Assembly (NCBI GenBank): GCA_012959805.1
Contig: DUCN01000026.1
Location: 277,899 to 341,898 of the forward strand
Length of the DNA: 64,000 nt
DNA from: Myxococcales bacterium
GTDB taxonomy: Bacteria > Myxococcota_A > UBA9160 > UBA4427
Reading direction: 5' to 3'
Each line of letters starts with the position of its first letter. Position 1 is the first letter of the stretch. This document shows positions 11,044-21,966 of this stretch, one piece after another. A program made the position numbers and the translations under genes. Under the pieces are notes generated by a model. It did not search any database and was not told the DNA's origin. It was given only the letters and a program-made list of their open reading frames with translations.

Positions 11044-13056
11044 TCAGGGCTTTACGATCTCAAAGGCAGGCGAAAATCGCTCGAAGAGCCGGCCGAATCG
11101 AGCCAGCGCAATCAATCCTCCGTCGAGCGATGCCTGATCCTTGAGTAGCAGGTTCGGAAGCGACACGGCCCCAGAGAGAACACCCACGAAGTCCGCGCGA
11201 CTGATTCGAAGTACGATCGTCGGATCTTCCGCACGTCGAGCTTTGTAGTAGCGAAGCACGCCGTGAGCGATTTCCAAGAGCCATTGTTCGTCACGATCCG
11301 GGAACTCGAGCTCAACCGTCATCTCGACGTCCGCGGCCTCTTCCCCCTTGAGCCCAATCGCCAGGTAGTCGAAGAACAGGTCCGAACTCATACCCGCCAG
11401 AATGTCCGAGCTCGTCGGCGAAACGGTCGTGCCTATCTTCGCCGATTCCGTCGCTCGCAGTTCTTGCGCCCCTGTCAGATAAAAATTCCGCCATGGACCC
11501 GACTCGGCCTGATACCCGAGTTGTTCGAGCGCATCCGCCTCGAGCCAGCGTGCCGCGCGATTGCTGGGCTCAGCGAAGACGAGATGCTTCACGACCTCCG
11601 CCACCCATCGATAGTCACCGCGGTCGTAGGCCACACGAGCGTGATCGAGCAATGCCTCCGCCCCGCCCGCGAGTTCAACATAACGTCGGCCCGCCTGCTC
11701 CGGTGGATGGGGGTTCAGGTTGGCGGGGTTCCCATCGAAGAAACCAAGATAAAGCTGATACGTCGCCTTCGAATTGTGGCTGACCGTCCCGTAGTAGCCG
11801 CGATTGAACCATTCCCGGCCGAGCTCGTCCGGCAGCCGAAGTTGCTCGGCGATTTCAAGAGGCGTGAGTCCCATATTCGCCAGATGCAGAGTCTGGTCAT
11901 GAATATATTTGTAGAGATCTCGCTGACTGGCGAGGTAGGCCACCGCTTCCGCTCGCCCCCATCGCGGCCAATGATGTCCACCGAAAACAACTTCGAGGTC
12001 CCCGCCGAAAAGATCAATCGCCTCGTCGAGCCACCGCGCCCAATCAGAACCATTTCGAACCTGGGCGCCGCGCAATGTATAGAGATTGTGAAGAACCGCG
12101 CTCGCTTCTTCTGCGGCGTAGAATGCCTTGCGCTGCGGGAAATAGAACATGAACTCCGCCGGAGCCTCGGCATTCGGCGTGTACTGAAAGACGATCTCAA
12201 CTCCGTCGATGGTGAGTGTCGTACCGGTCTTGTGAATGACATCCGTGGGTTCGATGATCGAAACGCGACCGATCGACGTCGTCTTTCCCAGCCCCGCATC
12301 GATACGGCCTCGCTCCCCCGCCGGCAAGAGCCGGCCAAACATATAGGCGGCACGACGCGTCATCACGTTTCCGGCGAGCACATTCTCACTCACCGAATGC
12401 TGCATGAATCCTTCGGGCGCAATGATTCGCACGCGTCCCTGCTCAACATCTTCTCGAGTCGTTACTCCACGAACGCCACCGAAATGGTCGACATGGCTAT
12501 GGGAATAGATCACGGCAACGACCGGCCGTTCCCCAAGCGTCTCATTCACGAGATCTAGCGCAGCCCTTGCCGCCTCAACCGTGATCAGGGGATCCAAAAC
12601 GATCCAGCCCGTATCGCCGCGGACAAAACTAATATTCGAGAGGTCGTACCCTCGAACCTGGTAGATGCCATCCACGACCTGGAAGAGGCCATGGATCATA
12701 TTCAACTTTGCTTGTCGCCAAAGACTCGGATTGACCGTATCCGGGGCATCGCCCTTCTCGAATGCGTAATTCGTCATGTCCCAAGCGATCGTTCCATCGT
12801 CCGCTGCAATCTGTAGACCCGGGTCTGTCGCCAGGCGCCCTCGCTTCGCGAGTTCGAAATCCGCGTCATGATCAAAGGGCAGTGAGCGGGCAACCTTCTG
12901 ATTCGCCGCCCGAGTCGCGGCCGTCGCCGGCTTGGAATCGGAGGTCAGCGTCATGCCACCGGATTCGACCGTCGACCGCGCGCCGAGCCCCGCACAGCCC
13001 ACGTTCGCGATGAGTCCAGCCGACATCATCAACAAGCCTACTTGCTTTCGAATCAT
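11044..13056 (-). CDS. Alkyl sulfatase, SdsA1/BDS1-like metallo-beta-lactamase family
   Basis: I start at ATG 13056, which gives a lipoprotein-type signal (lipobox-like NVGC, Cys21) and 670 residues; 19 further codons upstream are open. The catalytic part has HSHVDHFGG at about 186-194 and FGGHHWPRWG as the second metal site. A helical dimerisation region (about 420-530) and a C-terminal SCP2-like lipid-binding domain follow. This is the layout of SdsA1-type enzymes, which hydrolyse primary or secondary alkyl sulfates such as SDS to alcohol and sulfate. It is probably anchored in the periplasm. The neighbouring acyl-CoA synthetase could activate the acid formed after oxidation. Confidence 0.9.
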   Translation of the reverse strand: MIRKQVGLLMMSAGLIANVGCAGLGARSTVESGGMTLTSDSKPATAATRAANQKVARSLPFDHDADFELAKRGRLATDPGLQIAADDGTIAWDMTNYAFEKGDAPDTVNPSLWRQAKLNMIHGLFQVVDGIYQVRGYDLSNISFVRGDTGWIVLDPLITVEAARAALDLVNETLGERPVVAVIYSHSHVDHFGGVRGVTTREDVEQGRVRIIAPEGFMQHSVSENVLAGNVMTRRAAYMFGRLLPAGERGRIDAGLGKTTSIGRVSIIEPTDVIHKTGTTLTIDGVEIVFQYTPNAEAPAEFMFYFPQRKAFYAAEEASAVLHNLYTLRGAQVRNGSDWARWLDEAIDLFGGDLEVVFGGHHWPRWGRAEAVAYLASQRDLYKYIHDQTLHLANMGLTPLEIAEQLRLPDELGREWFNRGYYGTVSHNSKATYQLYLGFFDGNPANLNPHPPEQAGRRYVELAGGAEALLDHARVAYDRGDYRWVAEVVKHLVFAEPSNRAARWLEADALEQLGYQAESGPWRNFYLTGAQELRATESAKIGTTVSPTSSDILAGMSSDLFFDYLAIGLKGEEAADVEMTVELEFPDRDEQWLLEIAHGVLRYYKARRAEDPTIVLRISRADFVGVLSGAVSLPNLLLKDQASLDGGLIALARFGRLFERFSPAFEIVKP

Positions 13057-13157
13057 TCTTAACTTTCTCTCGCGTGAATCGACACTTTTAGTGCTTGAGA
13101 CGCAGTCATGCATTCAGGCCTCAGCACGATAACAAAATGGAAAACGTGGACCGCTCG

Positions 13158-14729
13158 TTAGTTGACGCGGCGGGCGTGGCCCTTCCAATATGGCTCGCGC
13201 AACTCTGTCTTCAAGATCTTTCCAGACGGGTTCCGCGGTAGCTCCGACTTTCGGTCGACCGCGGTGGGGCATTTATAGCGAGCCAGACGTTCTCGGCAGT
13301 AGTTCCTAATTTCTTCGTCGCCAACCGCTTCGTCGGCCGCATCGACGATGATCGCAGTCACGGATTCGCCCCATTTTTCGGAGGGAACTCCAATCACGGC
13401 GGCATCCGCGATCGAGGGATGGCTCATCAACACATTCTCGATCTCCGCGGGATAGATATTCTCTCCTCCCGAAACGATCATGTCTTTCACGCGGTCGTGA
13501 ATATAGAGATAGCCCTCTTTCATGTACCCGGCGTCTCCGGTGCGAAACCATCCGACTCCGTTCTCGTCGAGGCCCTCCGGATAGGACTCCATCGTGGCTT
13601 CCGGGTTGCGCCAATAGCCCTTCATGTTCTGCTTCGACCAGATCCAGATCTCTCCCACCTCGCCTTCGGCCAGGTCTTTGCGGGACTCATCATCGACGAT
13701 TCTGATCTTCGTATCACCCCAAGCCTTGCCCGCCGATCGCAAGAGATGCGCCTTCGGGCCTCCAGGATCATGATCCTCTTTCGGCATCACCGTGATCGCA
13801 CCCGTCGTCTCCGTCAGCCCATAGACCTGAATAAAGCCACAACCAAAAATCTTCATGGCGGTAGCGAGGACCTGTTCCGAAATCGGAGAAGCCCCGTATA
13901 CGATCGATCGAAGAGAACTGAAGTCGGCTTTTTCGACGCCTTCCGTTGCGCAGAGAATCTGGAGAACCGCTGGCACGAACAAGGTATTCGTCACGCGATG
14001 CTTTTCGATCAGACGGATCACCTCCGGCGGATCCATGTCGCGCACGAGAATTGATTCGCCTCCCTGACAGAACCCGCCGACCGCCCAGCCGCTTCCAGCA
14101 ATATGAAAGAGCGGCATCGCTACCATGCTCACGCTCGTTTCATCGATCTGCCAATTTTCCGCACCAACATCCATCGCCGCCATCAAGTTGCGATGAGTGA
14201 GTTCGACACCCTTTGGAAGCCCCGTCGTCCCGGACGTATAAAGTTGATAACAAGTCTCATCGTCACGACACCCAAGCTTCGGGTCGATCGGATCTTGCCC
14301 CCCATACCAATCTTCGTAACGGATGACCTCGCCACCGTCTCCAATGACGAGAACTCGCTTGACCGTCCCGAGCTTCATCTTTTCGAGATGCCCGAGAAAC
14401 TCCTCGCCGATCAAGAGGACTTTCGCCTCGGCGTGGTTCAGGATGTATTCCATTTCCGGAGGAGCCAGCCGCCAGTTCACCGCAAGCGTGACGGCGTTGA
14501 CCATCGCGGACCCGAATAGCAGCGAGAAATACTCGGGAACATTCCGATCGAGAAAGGCGACCCGCTCTTGGGGCAACACACCTTCTAAAAGAAGCGCTTG
14601 GGCAACCCTGCACGACTCGTCGTAGAGATCCGCGTAGGTCCAGCTCCGATCCCCCGCTCGCATGGCGACTTTGTTGGGGCGCTCACCCGAATGAAGGCGA
14701 AGAACTTGATCAAGTGTCGTTATGGGCAT
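13158..14729 (-). CDS. Acyl-CoA synthetase (AMP-forming), FadD-like
   Basis: The 523-residue enzyme has the ANL-family motif YTSGTTGLPKG (164-174), IQVYGLTETTG, GWFRTGDAGYMKEGYLYIHDRVKDMI and the C-terminal lysine in PSGKILK. It converts a carboxylic acid, ATP and CoA to acyl-CoA. Length and motifs fit medium- to long-chain fatty acid ligases, but chain length is not readable from sequence. An AGGAAAGG ribosome site precedes the start. It lies just downstream of the formate dehydrogenase gene (73 bases), though it need not belong to that operon. Confidence 0.9.
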   Translation of the reverse strand: MPITTLDQVLRLHSGERPNKVAMRAGDRSWTYADLYDESCRVAQALLLEGVLPQERVAFLDRNVPEYFSLLFGSAMVNAVTLAVNWRLAPPEMEYILNHAEAKVLLIGEEFLGHLEKMKLGTVKRVLVIGDGGEVIRYEDWYGGQDPIDPKLGCRDDETCYQLYTSGTTGLPKGVELTHRNLMAAMDVGAENWQIDETSVSMVAMPLFHIAGSGWAVGGFCQGGESILVRDMDPPEVIRLIEKHRVTNTLFVPAVLQILCATEGVEKADFSSLRSIVYGASPISEQVLATAMKIFGCGFIQVYGLTETTGAITVMPKEDHDPGGPKAHLLRSAGKAWGDTKIRIVDDESRKDLAEGEVGEIWIWSKQNMKGYWRNPEATMESYPEGLDENGVGWFRTGDAGYMKEGYLYIHDRVKDMIVSGGENIYPAEIENVLMSHPSIADAAVIGVPSEKWGESVTAIIVDAADEAVGDEEIRNYCRERLARYKCPTAVDRKSELPRNPSGKILKTELREPYWKGHARRVN

Positions 14730-14802: not shown

Positions 14803-17616
14803 TCAATCCTCGCAGCGCGTGACGCTCACCGCGCAGAGTTTGAATTCCGGAATCTTGCCGTCGGGATCAAGTTCATCGAGGGTCAGAAGATTCGCCGCCG
14901 CCTCGCGAAAATGGAAGGGAATGAAAATCGCCCCGCGATTCTCCCGAGTAGTCAGCTTTACTGCGATCCGAATCTTTCCGCGACGACTCTCCACCAGCGC
15001 GCGATCGCCAGTTATCAAACCGAGAGCCTCAGCATCCTTCGGATGTATCGCGGCAAAGGCTTCCGGCGCGATTGCATCGAGCGCCTTTGCGCGCCGCGTC
15101 ATCCCCCCCGTATGCCAATGTTCGAGGAGTCGTCCCGTATTCAGCACAAAGGGATATCGCTCGTCGGGCAGTTCCGGCGCCGCCGACCATTGCGCGGGAA
15201 CAAGCTTCGCGCGCCCACTTTCTGTTGGGAAGCGATCGGTAAAGAGGACAGCCGGTCCTTCCTCGTGCTCCGGATCGGGATTTGGCCAGAGCTTCCCCGA
15301 CGCACCGAGCGTATTGTGATCGAGCGTCGCATAACTCGATGTCAAGCCGGCGAATTCAGCGAAAATTTCATCGGTGGACGCATAACGCATCGGGTATCCA
15401 GCCCGCGTCGAAACTTCGGAAATGATTTCCCAGTCAAGTCGCGCCTGGCCGGGAAGCTCGAGGACGGGACGGCCCAGCTGAACCCGACGGTCCGTATTGG
15501 TGTAGGTCCCGAGCTTTTCCATATACGCGCTCGCGGGCAGGATGACATCCGCAAACTCAGCCGTCTCGGTCAGAAAAATATCCTGCACGACGAGGAAGTC
15601 GAGCTTGGAAAGGGCCTTGCGAACCTTGTTCACATTCGGGTCGGAGAGAAAGGGATTTTCACCCATGATGTACATGCCCCGAATGCTCCCAGCCAGAGCG
15701 CCAGCGGTAATCTCGACAACCGTGAGTCCCGGGTCCGGTGACAGCGAACATCCCCAAGCGGCTTCGAATTTTTCACGCACTCGGGCATCATCGACCCGTT
15801 GATAGTCGGGATAGACCATCGGGATGAGTCCAGCGTCGCTGGCACCTTGAACGTTATTCTGGCCTCGCAGCGGATGAAGGCCCGAACCGGGTGCGCCGAC
15901 GTTGCCCGTGATCAGCGCCAACGAAATCAGACAACGCGCGTTGTTTGTTCCGTAGACATGCTGGGACACACCCATCCCCCAGAATATGATGGCGCGCTTG
16001 GCGCGCCCAAAGACCCGAGCGACATCCCTAATCCGCTCTGGTGAGAGGCCGCAAATCTTAGAAGCCCGCTCGGGCGTATACTCGGCCACGGATTCGCGTA
16101 GCGCTTCGAAACCTTCGGTTCGCGTCTCGATGAAGGACTCGTCACAGAGCCCCTCTTCGATGATGACCTGCATCATCGCGTTGTAGAACGCGACATCAGT
16201 CCCGGGTTTGATCCCACAGAAGAACTCAGCGTGATCCGCAATCACCTCGCGCCTTGGGTCCACGACGATCAGCTTCAACCCGCGTTTGATCGCCTGCTTG
16301 AAGAAGGTTGCCGCAACGGGATGATTCGAAGTAGGGTTCGAACCTGTGATGAGCGCGACGTCTGCATTCTCGATGTCTGCGTAGGTCGTCGTGACGGCGC
16401 CGCTTCCAATCGACTCGAGTAATGCGGCCACGCTCGAGGCATGGCATAGCCGCGTGCAATGGTCGACGTTATTCGTCCCAAGCGCGGTTCGCATCATTTT
16501 TTGAAAGAGGTAGGCCTCCTCGTTCGAACATTTGGCACTGCCAAAACCGGCCAGTGCGTTTGGCCCGTCGTGATCGCGAATCCCCGCGAGTCGGCTGGCC
16601 ACGAGATCCAGCGCTTCGTCCCAGCTTGCCTCGCGAAACGCCGGCAGGACCTCTCGATCGTCCACGAATCCACCGGCCCTACGTCGACCATCATTTTCTC
16701 CACGCGTGTCCGAGGACAAAGCTCCCTTGGGATAGGCCGCCTCCCGTCGAATAAGCGGCGTCACGAGACGCTGGGGATGCGAGACATAGTCCCATCCATA
16801 ACGTCCCTTGACGCAAAGCCGGCCCAGATTAGCCGAGTCCTTGCGCCCCTCGGCGAACACGATCTCCGCCCGCTTCCCGTCCGCGCCCTCCGCGACGTGA
16901 TAGGTCAGTGCGCATCCGACACCGCAATAGGGACAAACGCTATCGACGGCCTTCAACTCTCGGCGCGGGCGCAATGGCGAGCGTAACGGACGATCCACGA
17001 GCGCACCGGTCGGGCAAACGGCAGCACACTCACCGCAAGAGACGCAAGTACTTTCCCCCATGCCCGCATCGAGATCAAAAGCAATCTTCGCCGAGAAACC
17101 TTTACCGCTCCTTCCGATGACTTCGTTTCCCTGGACATCATTACAGGCGCGGATACAGCGATCACACAGAATGCAGGCCTGATGATCCACATCGATCACC
17201 TTCGAGCTTTGGTCTTCCCCTCGGCCGGGCGCCGCCGGAAAGCGAGACCGGGTCAGCGCGTGAACGCGGGCCAGGGAGGCCAGTTCGTTGTCACCGAGCC
17301 GAACCTCGCGTCGATCCTCGTTCATGGCAGTCGCCGCCGGTTGATCGCTCAACAAAAGCTCGGTCAGCATCGAACGATGCCGGTCGAGTTCTTCCGACTG
17401 CGTACGAATCTCCATTCCCGGCTGGCATTTCCGGACACAGGACGCGGCCTTTGTTCGTTCCCCCACATCAACGACGCACAATCGACAGACACCGACCGGA
17501 TCGAGACCGGGCGAATGACATAACACCGGAATCTCGATGCCGGCGGATGCGGCTGCCTCGAGAATCGTCTCACCCTCGCGGGCTTCGAGGTCCCTTCCAT
17601 CAATCCGAAGCTTCAT
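14803..17616 (-). CDS. Formate dehydrogenase catalytic subunit (NAD-linked, FdsA-like)
   Basis: I choose ATG 17616, which overlaps the upstream stop as ATGA, giving 937 residues. In order: a [2Fe-2S] domain (Cys33, 44, 47, 60), two [4Fe-4S] motifs (Cys148-158 and Cys191-201), then the molybdopterin part with its cluster cysteines (228, 231, 235, 268). The active-site pair is Cys391-His392 in DHCTRLCHASS. GMGVSQHVYGTNN and PLRGQNNVQG are typical of formate dehydrogenases. Cysteine replaces selenocysteine. The usual His-ligated cluster motif (HPxDCxxC) is absent; DQPAATAMN stands there. The cofactor is bis-MGD with Mo or W. Last gene of the operon. Confidence 0.92.
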   Translation of the reverse strand: MKLRIDGRDLEAREGETILEAAASAGIEIPVLCHSPGLDPVGVCRLCVVDVGERTKAASCVRKCQPGMEIRTQSEELDRHRSMLTELLLSDQPAATAMNEDRREVRLGDNELASLARVHALTRSRFPAAPGRGEDQSSKVIDVDHQACILCDRCIRACNDVQGNEVIGRSGKGFSAKIAFDLDAGMGESTCVSCGECAAVCPTGALVDRPLRSPLRPRRELKAVDSVCPYCGVGCALTYHVAEGADGKRAEIVFAEGRKDSANLGRLCVKGRYGWDYVSHPQRLVTPLIRREAAYPKGALSSDTRGENDGRRRAGGFVDDREVLPAFREASWDEALDLVASRLAGIRDHDGPNALAGFGSAKCSNEEAYLFQKMMRTALGTNNVDHCTRLCHASSVAALLESIGSGAVTTTYADIENADVALITGSNPTSNHPVAATFFKQAIKRGLKLIVVDPRREVIADHAEFFCGIKPGTDVAFYNAMMQVIIEEGLCDESFIETRTEGFEALRESVAEYTPERASKICGLSPERIRDVARVFGRAKRAIIFWGMGVSQHVYGTNNARCLISLALITGNVGAPGSGLHPLRGQNNVQGASDAGLIPMVYPDYQRVDDARVREKFEAAWGCSLSPDPGLTVVEITAGALAGSIRGMYIMGENPFLSDPNVNKVRKALSKLDFLVVQDIFLTETAEFADVILPASAYMEKLGTYTNTDRRVQLGRPVLELPGQARLDWEIISEVSTRAGYPMRYASTDEIFAEFAGLTSSYATLDHNTLGASGKLWPNPDPEHEEGPAVLFTDRFPTESGRAKLVPAQWSAAPELPDERYPFVLNTGRLLEHWHTGGMTRRAKALDAIAPEAFAAIHPKDAEALGLITGDRALVESRRGKIRIAVKLTTRENRGAIFIPFHFREAAANLLTLDELDPDGKIPEFKLCAVSVTRCED

Positions 17617-19514
17617 GGGGCCATTTCTTCGGCCACCGACAAAGTCAGTGGCGCACAACCCCCATCGACTTCACGAAGCCCGAACTCAATGCTCAGGCTC
17701 GAGACACGCGACGGTGGAATCCAGCCGTCAGCGCTCCATCCGCGTTCAAGATTGTAGTTTCGAATCATTTCTGCGAGTCGATGGCTAGGCAGTCGCGCCC
17801 CACGACTAGGCCCAGAGGTCAATGACTCAGTCAAGAAACGCCCCGGCAGCGTATCGTCTTCGGGCTTCCAGCCCTCCCGGACGTTGAATGCCTTCCGCAA
17901 GTCAACGATCCCCTTCGCCACAGCGCGCAGACTCGCTGGGGAGAATGCGTGGCCCGTGACCGCACTTAACATCTCTGCACAATCGGGATAAAAGTCTTCG
18001 AGGGCACCACGGACAAATTTACACAGAATGAGCGAATCGAGAAGCGCAGCACGATCTTCAGTTTCGATTGCCTTCGCCGCAGACTTTGCGTTGCCACGCA
18101 AACGATCGACCCCCTCATCGAAATCCACCTCGTATGCGCCGCTTCGGTTGTGATCTGCTCCGCGTGTCCCCACCGCCAGACCCAGCGCCAGTGTTTGCAG
18201 CGCGCGGGGTTCGTACCCAGGCAACTCGAGACCCTTGACTTGGGGTGCGAATTCGATCGCGCCTTGACCTACGAACTCTGCCAAACGACGGGACCCTTCC
18301 GCCATCTGATCGCCAAGCCCCCGGCGATGAGCGACGTCGTCAAGCCAACCGAGCATCGCCTCGGGGTCGTCGAATCGCGGCCCATCTTCGAGCAGTCCCC
18401 GATCACCGCATTCCATCGCGAACGCGAGAGTCGCGCCTACGGAGATCGTGTCCATCCCGAGTTCATCACATCGCTTCGAGGCCGCCAGCACCTGATCGGG
18501 ATCATCGATTCCGCAGAGCGGACCGAGCGCGAAGACACTTTCGTATTCAACCCGAGTCTCTGAAATCTCCTCGCGCCCGTTCTCGCGTTGATCAACATCA
18601 CTCCCAACGACAGCGGAGCTCGAGGCGGCAACCTTGCTCTTGCCCGGCGCAATTTCGAATCGATGCTCACAGCCAATCGTGCAGCTCGCGCAAGACGATC
18701 GCCGATGTTTTCGAGTGCCATGCCAATTCTCCACTGCAAGAAGCGGGGATCCAGAGAAATGGCTCTCTTGGAAATTACGCGTTGGCAGGATTCCAAGGCG
18801 ATCAAATGAAAGGAGATTCCCGACCGTCCCGAGTTCTCGGTACTTCGCCGTCGCTTCCCCGGCGGCTCGACGGCGCAAGCGTCTGGCAAGCGCCTCTACT
18901 CGATCAGAGTCGGCAACCGGGGTCTCGACAGCCCCTCGAAGGGCAATCGCCTTCAGCCGTTTCGAACCCATGACCGCGCCGAGTCCGCCCCGCCCCGCAT
19001 GGCGCCCGTCTGCACTCAGATTGGCAAAGCGGACCAACCGCTCGCCGGCCACACCGATCGCGGCCACACGCCCGAAGGGCTCGAGAATTCGAGCCGTTTC
19101 CTCCGCCGTTTTGCCCCAACAAATGCTGGGGCGAAGCGCACCGTCGACCAGTTCAGATGGTTCCGAACAAGCTCCGACGAGAACGACCGCATCGACGCCC
19201 AACGCCTTGCCCGCAATTGCAAAATGACTACTCGATAACGCATCGGAAATCCCGCCGGTGAGCGGCGACTTCGCCACCACGGCGAACTTCGCGGATGTCG
19301 TGAATCGCGTTCCGACCAGGGGCGAGAACGAAAAGATCAACGGCGCTTCGGGTGCGAGGGGATCGACGCCGACCGGCGCTTCCTGATGGAGAAGCCATGC
19401 ACCGAGTCCCACGCCCCCGAGCGTGCGCCGAAGAATCGCGTCCTCGATTGGAATTCTCTCACCGGCATTGCGACCCAGATCAAAGCGCCAATAACAACCG
19501 TGAAACCCCAACAT
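17613..19514 (-). CDS. Aldehyde:ferredoxin oxidoreductase, tungsten-type
   Basis: The 633-residue protein is a full-length AOR. Cluster cysteines are Cys275, 278 and 282 (SCASCTIGC) and Cys498 (LILCKF), the same spacing as in the archaeal enzyme. Cofactor-binding stretches include GRGGLGAVMGSKRLKAI (about 174-190) and LALGLAVGTRGADHNRSGAYEVDF (about 442-465). AORs interconvert aldehydes and carboxylic acids using a tungsten bis-pyranopterin. No separate ferredoxin-like subunit is encoded here. The start lies 2 bases behind the MobA-MoaD stop, and the stop overlaps the formate dehydrogenase start. Confidence 0.95.
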   Translation of the reverse strand: MLGFHGCYWRFDLGRNAGERIPIEDAILRRTLGGVGLGAWLLHQEAPVGVDPLAPEAPLIFSFSPLVGTRFTTSAKFAVVAKSPLTGGISDALSSSHFAIAGKALGVDAVVLVGACSEPSELVDGALRPSICWGKTAEETARILEPFGRVAAIGVAGERLVRFANLSADGRHAGRGGLGAVMGSKRLKAIALRGAVETPVADSDRVEALARRLRRRAAGEATAKYRELGTVGNLLSFDRLGILPTRNFQESHFSGSPLLAVENWHGTRKHRRSSCASCTIGCEHRFEIAPGKSKVAASSSAVVGSDVDQRENGREEISETRVEYESVFALGPLCGIDDPDQVLAASKRCDELGMDTISVGATLAFAMECGDRGLLEDGPRFDDPEAMLGWLDDVAHRRGLGDQMAEGSRRLAEFVGQGAIEFAPQVKGLELPGYEPRALQTLALGLAVGTRGADHNRSGAYEVDFDEGVDRLRGNAKSAAKAIETEDRAALLDSLILCKFVRGALEDFYPDCAEMLSAVTGHAFSPASLRAVAKGIVDLRKAFNVREGWKPEDDTLPGRFLTESLTSGPSRGARLPSHRLAEMIRNYNLERGWSADGWIPPSRVSSLSIEFGLREVDGGCAPLTLSVAEEMAP

Positions 19515-19516
19515 GG

Positions 19517-20332
19517 CTAGCCCCCCGCGAGCGCGTCGATCACGCTCACTCGTTCGCCAGGGCCGACGGGGACTTCGAGGTCACGAACGAGATCACGCCC
19601 TCCGAGACACAATAGATGAGATGGTCCGAGTCTTCCGTCCACGAGCAGCGACTGTGCTCCAGGAAGCGCCGACAAGATTTCACGCACCGTCCCAACCGAA
19701 ACCTCAAAACAGGACGTACGGACCTTCTTTGCAGATCGGCCCAGAAACTCGATCACCGCCGACGCCGCTGGCTCTCGCGTACGTACCGCGTCGAGATAGG
19801 CGGCCGGCGTATTGAATCCCTGCCACGCAGGGGGCCCCAGCGATGATGCGCATTCGCTCGGCTTGTAGTCGAGGGCTTCGAGAAGACGAAGTGGTCGCCG
19901 AATCCCTTGGCCGAGAAGGTCATCCGCCTTCCGCCAGGCCTCGCAGGGATAGACAGCGGAGAGAACCTGCACATACCCATCGGCCAAGGGCGCCGCTGCC
20001 CCGCCTATCGAGAAAAGGCCTTCGACGAAGTCGGCTCGAAGATGAGGGGCGTCCACGCTCGTCACAAAAGCGAACTCCGAACCCGCCGCCTTCAACCCTT
20101 CGCGAATGCCGACCAGCGGACCACCGCCGATCTCGGTGTCGATGACAAGCTTTGCGTTGAGTGGCGGCAAGTCGAGTTCGCTCGAGGTGACGACGATGAT
20201 CTCGTCGACGACGGGGCTCAACTTGTCGACGACATGCTCGATCATCGTCTTGCCAAACCACGGTAGCCACGCTTTCGCCCGACCCATTCGCGATGAGCGC
20301 CCGCCACACAGAACAATGCCAGCACGACTCAT
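19517..20332 (-). CDS. MobA-MoaD fusion: molybdenum cofactor guanylyltransferase with ubiquitin-like sulfur carrier
   Basis: I choose ATG 20332 because it overlaps the upstream stop (ATGA) and directly precedes the nucleotide-binding motif GIVLCGGRSSRMGRAKAWLP. The frame is open upstream without family similarity. The product has 271 residues. Residues 1-190 are MobA-like, attaching GMP to the pterin. Residues about 195-271 look like MoaD/ThiS, ending in ALAGG, the C-terminal Gly-Gly that carries thiocarboxylate sulfur. Joining both activities between two pterin enzymes suggests a dedicated supply of the cofactor for AOR and formate dehydrogenase. Confidence 0.85.
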   Translation of the reverse strand: MSRAGIVLCGGRSSRMGRAKAWLPWFGKTMIEHVVDKLSPVVDEIIVVTSSELDLPPLNAKLVIDTEIGGGPLVGIREGLKAAGSEFAFVTSVDAPHLRADFVEGLFSIGGAAAPLADGYVQVLSAVYPCEAWRKADDLLGQGIRRPLRLLEALDYKPSECASSLGPPAWQGFNTPAAYLDAVRTREPAASAVIEFLGRSAKKVRTSCFEVSVGTVREILSALPGAQSLLVDGRLGPSHLLCLGGRDLVRDLEVPVGPGERVSVIDALAGG

Positions 20333-21966
20333 GATGCGCCTCGGTTCCCCGAATTCGGACCTGGCTCGCCCACACGATGAACTTGCTCGGGGAACTTCGA
20401 GAGGATCGAAAGCAGCGGACCGAGAGCGACCTGCCCGAGTCCGCAGATACTGGTCTGCTGCATCGTGTCGTGCAGAGCGCGAAGCAGCGCTTCGTCTTCG
20501 TCGGAAATGGCGCCGGCCTTTTCGATCAAGGACACAGCCTTTTCTGAACCCACCCGACAAGGCACACATTTCCCACACGACTCGTTTCGAAAGAATCGGG
20601 TGATGCTCAGACCCACCTCGAGCAGATCGCGGCCCTCCGCGACAAAGATCGCCGCGCCGGAACCTAGCATCGTCCCCGCCTCCGCCAATCCGTCGAAGTC
20701 GACGGGAAGGTCCAGGGCCTCCGGCCCCAGAAAATTGCTCGACGCGCCGCCCGGGGCGACGGCAAGCAGATTTCGACCCTCGCTGATTCCGCCATGATTT
20801 TCGAGCAGCACACCCAATTTCGTGCCGACGGCGACAAGCGCGACTCCGGGGATTTCGACATCGCCACTCGTCGACATGAACTTATGTCCCGAGAAACCGG
20901 CCTCACCGAGGTCGTGCCACCAACCTGAGCCATTCGCAACGATGCCGACCGCATGAACCAAGGTCTCGACATTGTTGATGAGCGTTGGCTTCTGGAACAG
21001 GCCAGAATTGCCGGGGAACGGAGGCTTGTTCCGCGGCTCCCCGCGACGATCCTCAAGGCATTCAAGAAGGGCCGTTTCCTCTCCAAGGACGTAGCCTCCG
21101 GGCGAAACGAAAATTTCAACATCGAAGCAAAAACCAGTCTCGAAAACATTGTCACCTAACACTCCGATCGAGCGTGCTCGATCGAGTTCCGCTTCGAGCC
21201 GTCGTCGTTCGGATTCATACTCATGGCGAATGAAGATCGTCCCACGGTCTGCGCCGACACAGTAGGCGGCGATCGCCATGCCTTCGATCAAGAGATGCGG
21301 CAGGTCGTGGATGAGCTCGCGGTCCTTGAAGGTTCCCGGCTCGCTCTCGTCGGCGTTACAGATCACAACCTTCGAAGCAGCAGCCTCCGCGGCCACCAGC
21401 GACCACTTCCGAGCCGTCGGAAATCCCGCACCTCCCATTCCTCGGAGCCCGGCAGCCTCGAGCGCTTCAATCGGGGCCTCGCGAGAACCTGAGAGAACCT
21501 GTCGCAACACGCGATAGTTCGAATCCGTGGAGCAGTAGGGATCCGCGGCTGGCCAAGAGCGCACGCCGCGTTCAAATGGTTCGGAGTCCCTAGCCTCCAC
21601 ACATTCGTCGATCGCCGCCAGATCGCGGGCATCTGCGATTCGATGTCCCAGTCCCGCCGCTGGCGCGCCATCACATCGACCAAGGCAGGATGTCTCTTCG
21701 ATCACGACATCCTGGCGACCCTCGGCCCATTCGCGCAGAGCCGTAGTCGCGGATTCGCCCCCGGCCAGCTGGCACGACAGGTCGCGACACACGCTGACGA
21801 CCACCGCTTCATTCTTTTCTCGGTGAAAATGAGGATAGAAAGTCGAAACACTCTCGAGTCGATGAAGAGGAACGCGCAATCGCTCCGCGAGTGCAGCCAA
21901 TCGATCCGGCGCGAGCCAACCGTCTTCTTCCTGCAGTGCTAGTAACGCTCGAACGATCTCGCCCAT
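20329..21966 (-). CDS. NuoE-NuoF fusion, NAD-linked diaphorase subunit (FdsGB/HoxF-like)
   Basis: The 545-residue protein joins a thioredoxin-like [2Fe-2S] NuoE domain (Cys60, 65, 94, 98) to a NuoF domain. The latter has the NADH site GMGGAGFPTARKW (about 175-187), the FMN site NADESEPGTFKDR, and the [4Fe-4S] ligands Cys464, 467, 470 and Cys508. It would pass electrons between NAD(H), FMN and the iron-sulfur arm of the formate dehydrogenase, as in soluble Fds-type enzymes. It is the first gene of the operon, behind a GAGGA ribosome site and a palindromic promoter region. Its stop overlaps the MobA-MoaD start. Confidence 0.93.
   Translation of the reverse strand: MGEIVRALLALQEEDGWLAPDRLAALAERLRVPLHRLESVSTFYPHFHREKNEAVVVSVCRDLSCQLAGGESATTALREWAEGRQDVVIEETSCLGRCDGAPAAGLGHRIADARDLAAIDECVEARDSEPFERGVRSWPAADPYCSTDSNYRVLRQVLSGSREAPIEALEAAGLRGMGGAGFPTARKWSLVAAEAAASKVVICNADESEPGTFKDRELIHDLPHLLIEGMAIAAYCVGADRGTIFIRHEYESERRRLEAELDRARSIGVLGDNVFETGFCFDVEIFVSPGGYVLGEETALLECLEDRRGEPRNKPPFPGNSGLFQKPTLINNVETLVHAVGIVANGSGWWHDLGEAGFSGHKFMSTSGDVEIPGVALVAVGTKLGVLLENHGGISEGRNLLAVAPGGASSNFLGPEALDLPVDFDGLAEAGTMLGSGAAIFVAEGRDLLEVGLSITRFFRNESCGKCVPCRVGSEKAVSLIEKAGAISDEDEALLRALHDTMQQTSICGLGQVALGPLLSILSKFPEQVHRVGEPGPNSGNRGAS

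Follow-up and report, generated by a model that had tools for sequence, protein, structure and literature searches.

Several described systems each resemble, in part, the operon examined here, a run of four genes for a fused NuoEF diaphorase, a MobA protein with a MoaD-like tail, an aldehyde oxidoreductase (AOR) and a formate dehydrogenase (FDH), found in a Myxococcales bacterium (GCA_012959805.1, contig DUCN01000026.1, positions 277,899 to 341,898; this whole stretch of 64,000 nucleotides is called the window below). The FDH and the NuoEF match MeFDH1, the tungsten FDH (FdhAB) of Methylorubrum extorquens (7E5Z, 7VW6, 8J83), over nearly their full length. However, MeFDH1 depends on FdhD (PMC13197769), which was not found in the 38 genomes that carry the FDH studied here, and the available text of that paper mentions no AOR gene beside fdh1. 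On the AOR side, the class I WOR/AOR enzymes (PfAOR and BmWOR, with WorX nearby) share with ours a single large subunit, the same active-site residues and a ThiS/MoaD-like partner, whereas in the present case MobA and the MoaD-like part form one protein and the operon is shared with an NAD-linked FDH.

In the class III AOR (Aromatoleum AorABC) and the class IV WorABCSL, the AOR large subunit is likewise tied to an NAD-reactive module, but the present operon has no gene for WorS (AorA) or for the FAD-containing WorN; unlike in class IV, moreover, the NuoEF lacks the extra clusters of the bifurcating WorB, and the NuoG-like arm is joined to an FDH domain. FdhFeFe-Bfu of Clostridium autoethanogenum, in which two catalysts, for formate and for H2, sit on one NuoEF-like core (PMC9304861), offers by analogy a precedent for a diaphorase shared by two catalysts, although its core bifurcates and its second catalyst is a hydrogenase rather than an AOR. 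Finally, MoaD genes strictly beside AOR genes, together with a possible AOR-MoaD fusion in Azoarcus, have been described (PMC1779556); here, in contrast, the MoaD-like part forms a fusion with MobA, and in operons without the AOR it mostly has no terminal Gly-Gly. In the open-licence literature searched, we came across neither an AOR-FDH-NuoEF operon nor a MobA-MoaD fusion, and the available parts of the Aromatoleum AOR paper (PMC6365974) and of the WOR classification (PMC13328260) describe no FDH-linked AOR.

The window lies on contig C26 of a draft genome (G000; 4.46 Mb, 136 contigs, about 90% complete), which was compared with a set of 147 related genomes. The bacteria with this operon are uncultured and likely related to the myxobacteria. 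The organism is likely aerobic, since the genome has a cytochrome oxidase gene. The features of the operon are as follows:

20329..21966, minus strand: NuoEF fusion (FdhB/diaphorase), 545 residues, assigned from the open reading frame, its families and its best solved match, 7E5Z_B
19517..20332, minus strand: MobA with a C-terminal MoaD-like tail ending ...DALAGG, 271 residues, assigned from the open reading frame, its family and the predicted fold
19517..19780, minus strand: the MoaD-like tail alone, a predicted beta-grasp with terminal Gly-Gly, from structure prediction and fold search
17613..19514, minus strand: aldehyde oxidoreductase AOR/WorL, 633 residues, assigned from its families and alignment to 1AOR
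14803..17616, minus strand: MeFDH1-like FDH alpha subunit with a NuoG-like N-terminal arm, 937 residues, assigned from its families and solved matches

All four open reading frames are on the minus strand, in the order NuoEF, MobA-tail, AOR, FDH. ATGA overlaps are present at 20329-20332 (NuoEF/MobA) and 17613-17616 (AOR/FDH), and the MobA-tail and the AOR are separated by two bases, CC, at 19515-19516. On re-reading of the sequence, this arrangement, with both overlaps and the gap, was exactly that given in an initial annotation of the window.

Our preferred reading, which we hold tentatively, is that the AOR is an optional catalytic client of an MeFDH1-type FDH, to which, with its NuoEF, it would pass electrons. 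It builds on the gene order, the overlaps, the intact motifs, the interleaved presence of the AOR among related operons and the link between the AOR and the Gly-Gly terminus of the tail. The AOR would oxidise an aldehyde and its electrons would enter the NuoG-like iron-sulfur arm of the FDH, after which they would go either to NAD+, through the shared NuoEF, or to CO2, at the FDH. To let the AOR feed this arm is the simplest commitment, because the operon lacks WorS, WorN and a ferredoxin, and because the adjoining NuoG-like arm pairs with a diaphorase.

AORs at least 54% identical to that of the window were found in 13 of the 147 genomes, and in 12 of these, to the extent that the contigs show, they belong to this operon; the thirteenth, in G083, stands beside a different FDH gene. 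(This clade leaves aside a 96-residue fragment in G032 with 68% identity, AORs of no more than 39% identity and short pieces of 41-44%; two loci, L034 and L035, that repeat those of G077, a genome of the same order, and of G007, of the same genus, were each counted once.) A search of the whole order (79 genomes) returned no new members of the clade. The four-gene order is visible in the window and in eight other loci, some of them ending at a contig end. With start codons estimated by script, the AOR and FDH frames overlap by 4 nucleotides in seven of these eight, and both junctions flanking the AOR measure -4 to +4 nucleotides throughout the nine. The exception is G007, where NuoEF and MobA-tail are followed by an inserted acyl-CoA ligase and then by the AOR, up to the contig end, its FDH being found at the end of a different contig. 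The contigs of G055 and G072 show the AOR and the FDH alone before they break off.

The same FDH (at least 62% identity) occurs in 38 of the 147 genomes: 12 with the AOR, 14 without it, nine of a type (type C) with a more distant FDH and a MobA that has no tail or was not seen, one (G073) with no NuoEF or MobA seen nearby, and two that are partial (G060 and G071). The 14 operons without the AOR consist of NuoEF, MobA-tail and FDH, and in their genomes no AOR reached 54% among the matches listed. The initial annotation had proposed conservation of the four-gene order as a check; the AOR indeed keeps its place wherever it is in the operon, apart from the one insertion in G007, but the operon also exists without it. 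Among the homologues listed, one protein is labelled Planctomycetes and one Acidobacteriota, both with 62% identity.

On the FDH tree (36 rows: 12 with the AOR, 13 without, 11 in no group; G002 is absent, and one ungrouped row, G090, 44-50% identical, has a very long branch), operons with and without the AOR are intermingled. The best tree needs six changes in AOR presence and the bootstrap trees five to six, four changes being forced by the starred branches. In 11 of the 14 AOR-less operons, a gap of 50-81 nucleotides separates MobA-tail from FDH at the site that the AOR would occupy. Given how tight the junctions are where the AOR is present, repeated loss would be a simpler reading than gain. 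Across the 12 genomes, AOR identities rise with FDH identities (Spearman 0.70, a value reached in 0 of 2000 permutations), a pattern that joint descent would produce.

The protein between NuoEF and the AOR had been called a MobA-MoaD fusion. Its larger half belongs to the MobA-like NTP transferase family, and a fold search with the model of the whole protein returned 50 rows of MobA, other nucleotidyltransferases and similar proteins. For the tail, Pfam gave no match (none of 11 tails hit any family at E 10, ThiS included), and the top hit of a tail profile against PDB sequences was the MoaD-related 1V8C, a weak one (E 0.088). The MoaD-like assignment came instead from the predicted structure (pLDDT 85.7), whose fold matches SAMP1, MoaD, Urm1 and CysO. 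The best 28 Foldseek matches of this model, of which the first three alone have E below 0.001, are nearly all titled MoaD, SAMP, Urm1, CysO, TtuB or complexes of these, and the titles of 2m19, 1wgk, 1ryj and 5ztb are uninformative. Gly-Gly ends 113 of the 120 listed homologues. The tail combines the two marks of a MoaD/ThiS carrier, a beta-grasp fold, here predicted, and a terminal Gly-Gly.

The terminus follows the AOR closely. In AOR-bearing operons whose MobA gene is visible, the tail ends in Gly-Gly in 10 out of 10, as against 1 out of 14 in AOR-less operons (Fisher 6e-6, with kinship among genomes ignored; this count excludes G083 as well as G055 and G072, whose contigs start in the AOR). 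Tails without an AOR nearby are also less alike: at a MobA identity of 0.5-0.6, mean tail identity is 0.45 with the AOR (25 pairs) and 0.30 without it (65 pairs), and the same holds in both higher MobA-identity bands. MoaD and ThiS hold sulfur as a thiocarboxylate on their terminal glycine (PMC1779556), and because the Gly-Gly follows the AOR, the tail most likely serves the AOR and the MobA half the FDH. The tail would then be the sulfur carrier for the AOR pterin, and the MobA half would make the bis(molybdopterin guanine dinucleotide) cofactor of the FDH. The AOR is thus likely to depend on the operon for its cofactor.

The same observations suit another explanation, in which the two enzymes share maturation and regulation only: AOR and FDH would be separate tungsten or molybdenum enzymes, the fused MobA/MoaD-like protein would serve both cofactors and the AOR would reduce free ferredoxin. 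We regard this as possible, if somewhat doubtful. That MoaD genes lie strictly beside AOR genes was already known (PMC1779556), and two further AORs of the window genome (on C42 and C98; L062 7828-9998 and L063 8483-18245) each adjoin a stand-alone ThiS/MoaD gene. Neither of them, however, is part of any such FDH operon, and shared maturation leaves unexplained why the AOR of the window type stands next to an FDH, with overlapping frames in seven of the eight measured loci, and why in G083 an AOR lies beside a different FDH gene. The second further AOR (L063) also has a Mod-type molybdate transporter and two MoeA genes nearby.

The active-site and cluster residues of the AOR are intact. It has the AFOR_N and AFOR_C domains, and alignment to Pyrococcus AOR (1AOR) indicates that C275, C278, C282 and C498 are kept, at the positions of the PfAOR cysteines that we take to bind the cluster. 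Also kept are T230, E325, Y434 and H455; the WOR review lists the active site as Thr243/Glu313/Tyr427/His448 in PfAOR numbering (PMC13328260). The protein thus has the family domains, the four active-site residues and the four cluster cysteines of AOR/WorL. It is predicted to use tungsten. An insertion in the AOR at about 287-317 was considered and discarded, as it is not conserved.

Inside the operon, to which the search was confined, there is no WorS, FAD-containing WorN or ferredoxin-type gene for the AOR, which bears out the earlier claim of a single operon devoid of an AOR ferredoxin. The WorS and FAD-containing WorN that accompany WorL in class III are accordingly missing from the operon (with no search made elsewhere in the genome), as are the WorS and, in NuoEF, the extra WorB clusters of class IV. 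What is seen is WorL alone with a WorX-like tail. Class I is defined by WorL alone with ferredoxin as carrier, and ferredoxin would be a candidate carrier here.

The FDH has Fer2_4 and molybdopterin oxidoreductase domains and matches TIGR01591, formate dehydrogenase alpha, with 779 bits (cut-off 666). Its best solved chain is MeFDH1 alpha, with 994 bits over residues 4-935, other solved chains reaching at most 611. The earlier label "FdsA-like" therefore gives way to MeFDH1-like, as 6TG9_A, which we take to be Rhodobacter FdsA, scores 591 bits. The cluster motifs comprise a [2Fe-2S] set (Cys 33, 44, 47 and 60), two four-cysteine sets (148-158 and 191-201) and Cys 228, 231, 235 and 268; the cysteine of RLCH at 389-392 is presumably the metal ligand. 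In the alignment, the His-Cys3 cluster region is free of cysteine both here and in MeFDH1 alpha. We considered this loss as an adaptation to AOR docking and rejected it, the motif being absent from all 120 listed FDH homologues, which were compared by sequence and not by gene context, as well as from MeFDH1.

The NuoEF combines Complex1_51K with a 2Fe-2S thioredoxin-like domain. Its best solved chain is MeFDH1 beta (7E5Z_B, 329 bits over residues 7-527, both halves covered), a small lead over HydB, which scores 311 bits in the NuoF half only. By motif, it has a NuoE-type [2Fe-2S] site (Cys 60, 65, 94 and 98), an FMN site (GMGGAGFP at 176) and a [4Fe-4S] site (Cys 464, 467, 470 and 508), that is, one cluster motif per half; it stops just past the NuoF cluster domain, without a C-terminal ferredoxin domain. 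Because the extra clusters are absent, this diaphorase should, judging from its motifs, be non-bifurcating by the criterion used for FdhFeFe-Bfu (PMC9304861). An FDH alpha with a NuoG-like arm and a fused NuoEF beta is the make-up of an MeFDH1-type enzyme.

The formate/CO2 couple has a potential near -430 mV. Since the aldehyde/acid couple lies near -500 mV (PMC13328260), the downhill direction would be aldehyde oxidation with NAD+ or CO2 as the acceptor. The initial annotation had included acid reduction driven by formate among the possible roles, and for this we found no specific support.

In G083 (L052 3-4096), a contig opens with a partial AOR, which is followed after about 95 bases by an FDH-N-type gene (TIGR01553, with 1121 bits for the larger piece). 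This gene has an in-frame TGA, taken as selenocysteine, where two pieces meet the model (positions 194 and 196), and a twin-arginine-like signal that falls below the Pfam cut-off. Here the element in common with the window operon is formate and not a partner protein, which favours a relay in which formate, made from formaldehyde by the AOR, is then oxidised to CO2 by the FDH with NAD+, so that the two enzymes share a metabolite and form no complex. Pyrroloquinoline quinone (PQQ)-dependent alcohol dehydrogenases, possible aldehyde sources, are also present in 72 of the 147 genomes and in 11 of the 12 AOR-operon genomes. Nevertheless, the G083 case comes from a single contig end in a draft assembly, and neither these enzymes (11 of 14 AOR-less-operon genomes) nor the class III glutathione-type formaldehyde dehydrogenase family (12 of 12 against 13 of 14) track the AOR, so that both were rejected as its companions. 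We consider such a relay improbable.

Several observations weigh against the AOR being a client of the FDH. In the 14 AOR-less operons, FDH and NuoEF are kept by themselves, and the presence of the AOR is only modestly clustered on the FDH tree (20-21 of 500 shuffles as low). One AOR-less operon, that of G082, still has a Gly-Gly tail; it is the sister of the AOR-bearing G086 on the FDH tree. The strongest covariation joins the AOR to the maturation tail and not to the FDH sequence: no fixed differences separate 12 AOR-bearing from 14 AOR-less FDHs, or nine AOR-bearing from 14 AOR-less NuoEFs, so that no dedicated docking patch for the AOR is visible in either protein. (Positions invariant with the AOR and variable without it number six in FDH and nine in NuoEF, as against two and five for the reverse pattern.) Export of the G083 FDH, if it occurs, would put it out of reach of a cytoplasmic AOR and so favour a link by metabolite or by regulation. 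A free ferredoxin may also still be the electron acceptor of the AOR.

A more far-reaching version of the client proposal would place the AOR and the MeFDH1-type FDH in one complex on a single NuoEF, where aldehyde, formate/CO2 and NAD(H) would exchange electrons without WorS or free ferredoxin and MobA-MoaD would serve maturation without FdhD. This would amount to a sixth kind of tungsten AOR, and we think it rather unlikely.

As regards FdhD, PF02634 (E 0.001) had no match in the window genome or in the other 37 that carry this FDH, though these drafts are incomplete. By comparison, FdhD was found in 73 of the 147 genomes overall and in 38 of the 52 remaining genomes among the 90 searched of the order and class. 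The mutual exclusion is strong when kinship is ignored (Fisher 9e-14). Some FDH-bearing organisms are reported to lack fdhD (PMC10609526), and the present FDH may, from its genomic distribution, mature without FdhD or through another stand-in. Some type C loci have a further gene between NuoEF and MobA, which was considered for this role and rejected: in L086, the one locus scanned, it encodes an outer-membrane beta-barrel.

Downstream of the FDH, on the same strand, the gene at 13158-14729 encodes an acyl-CoA ligase and the next one, at 11044-13113, an alkyl sulfatase. As far as the stretches fetched extend, the genomes G002, G003, G005, G006 and G007 also have the ligase, and G002 has the sulfatase as well. 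In the first four of these genomes, a symporter-family gene intervenes on the opposite strand. The ligase inserted in the G007 operon (L044 4684-6384) is only about 32% identical to the downstream one. As G002 shares both ligase and sulfatase and has an operon without the AOR, this looks like genus synteny, and we rejected the two genes as a clue to the AOR substrate. Several genomes of the genus, among them the AOR-less G001, also have an acyl-CoA thioesterase-family gene close to NuoEF (L047 6185-7009). Elsewhere on C26 (about 227279-228877; L096 1075-3216) there is a PQQ-dependent alcohol dehydrogenase with a cytochrome c domain, a possible source of aldehyde. It matches TIGR03075 (methanol/ethanol family), and from this match and the cytochrome c domain we judged it an alcohol dehydrogenase and not XoxF, no test specific to XoxF being made.

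The exact function of WorX was called unknown in a 2026 review (PMC13328260). The covariation of Gly-Gly with the AOR gives comparative support to the role suspected for WorX, which has so far been only predicted, and the interleaved absence of the AOR, together with the decay of the Gly-Gly tail, amounts to a natural experiment tying a dedicated sulfur carrier to an AOR. The absence of FdhD raises, in turn, a testable question on the sulfuration of the FDH. Finally, a natural AOR linked to an NAD-linked FDH of the MeFDH1 type would connect aldehydes, formate and NADH with one another in a bacterium that is likely aerobic.

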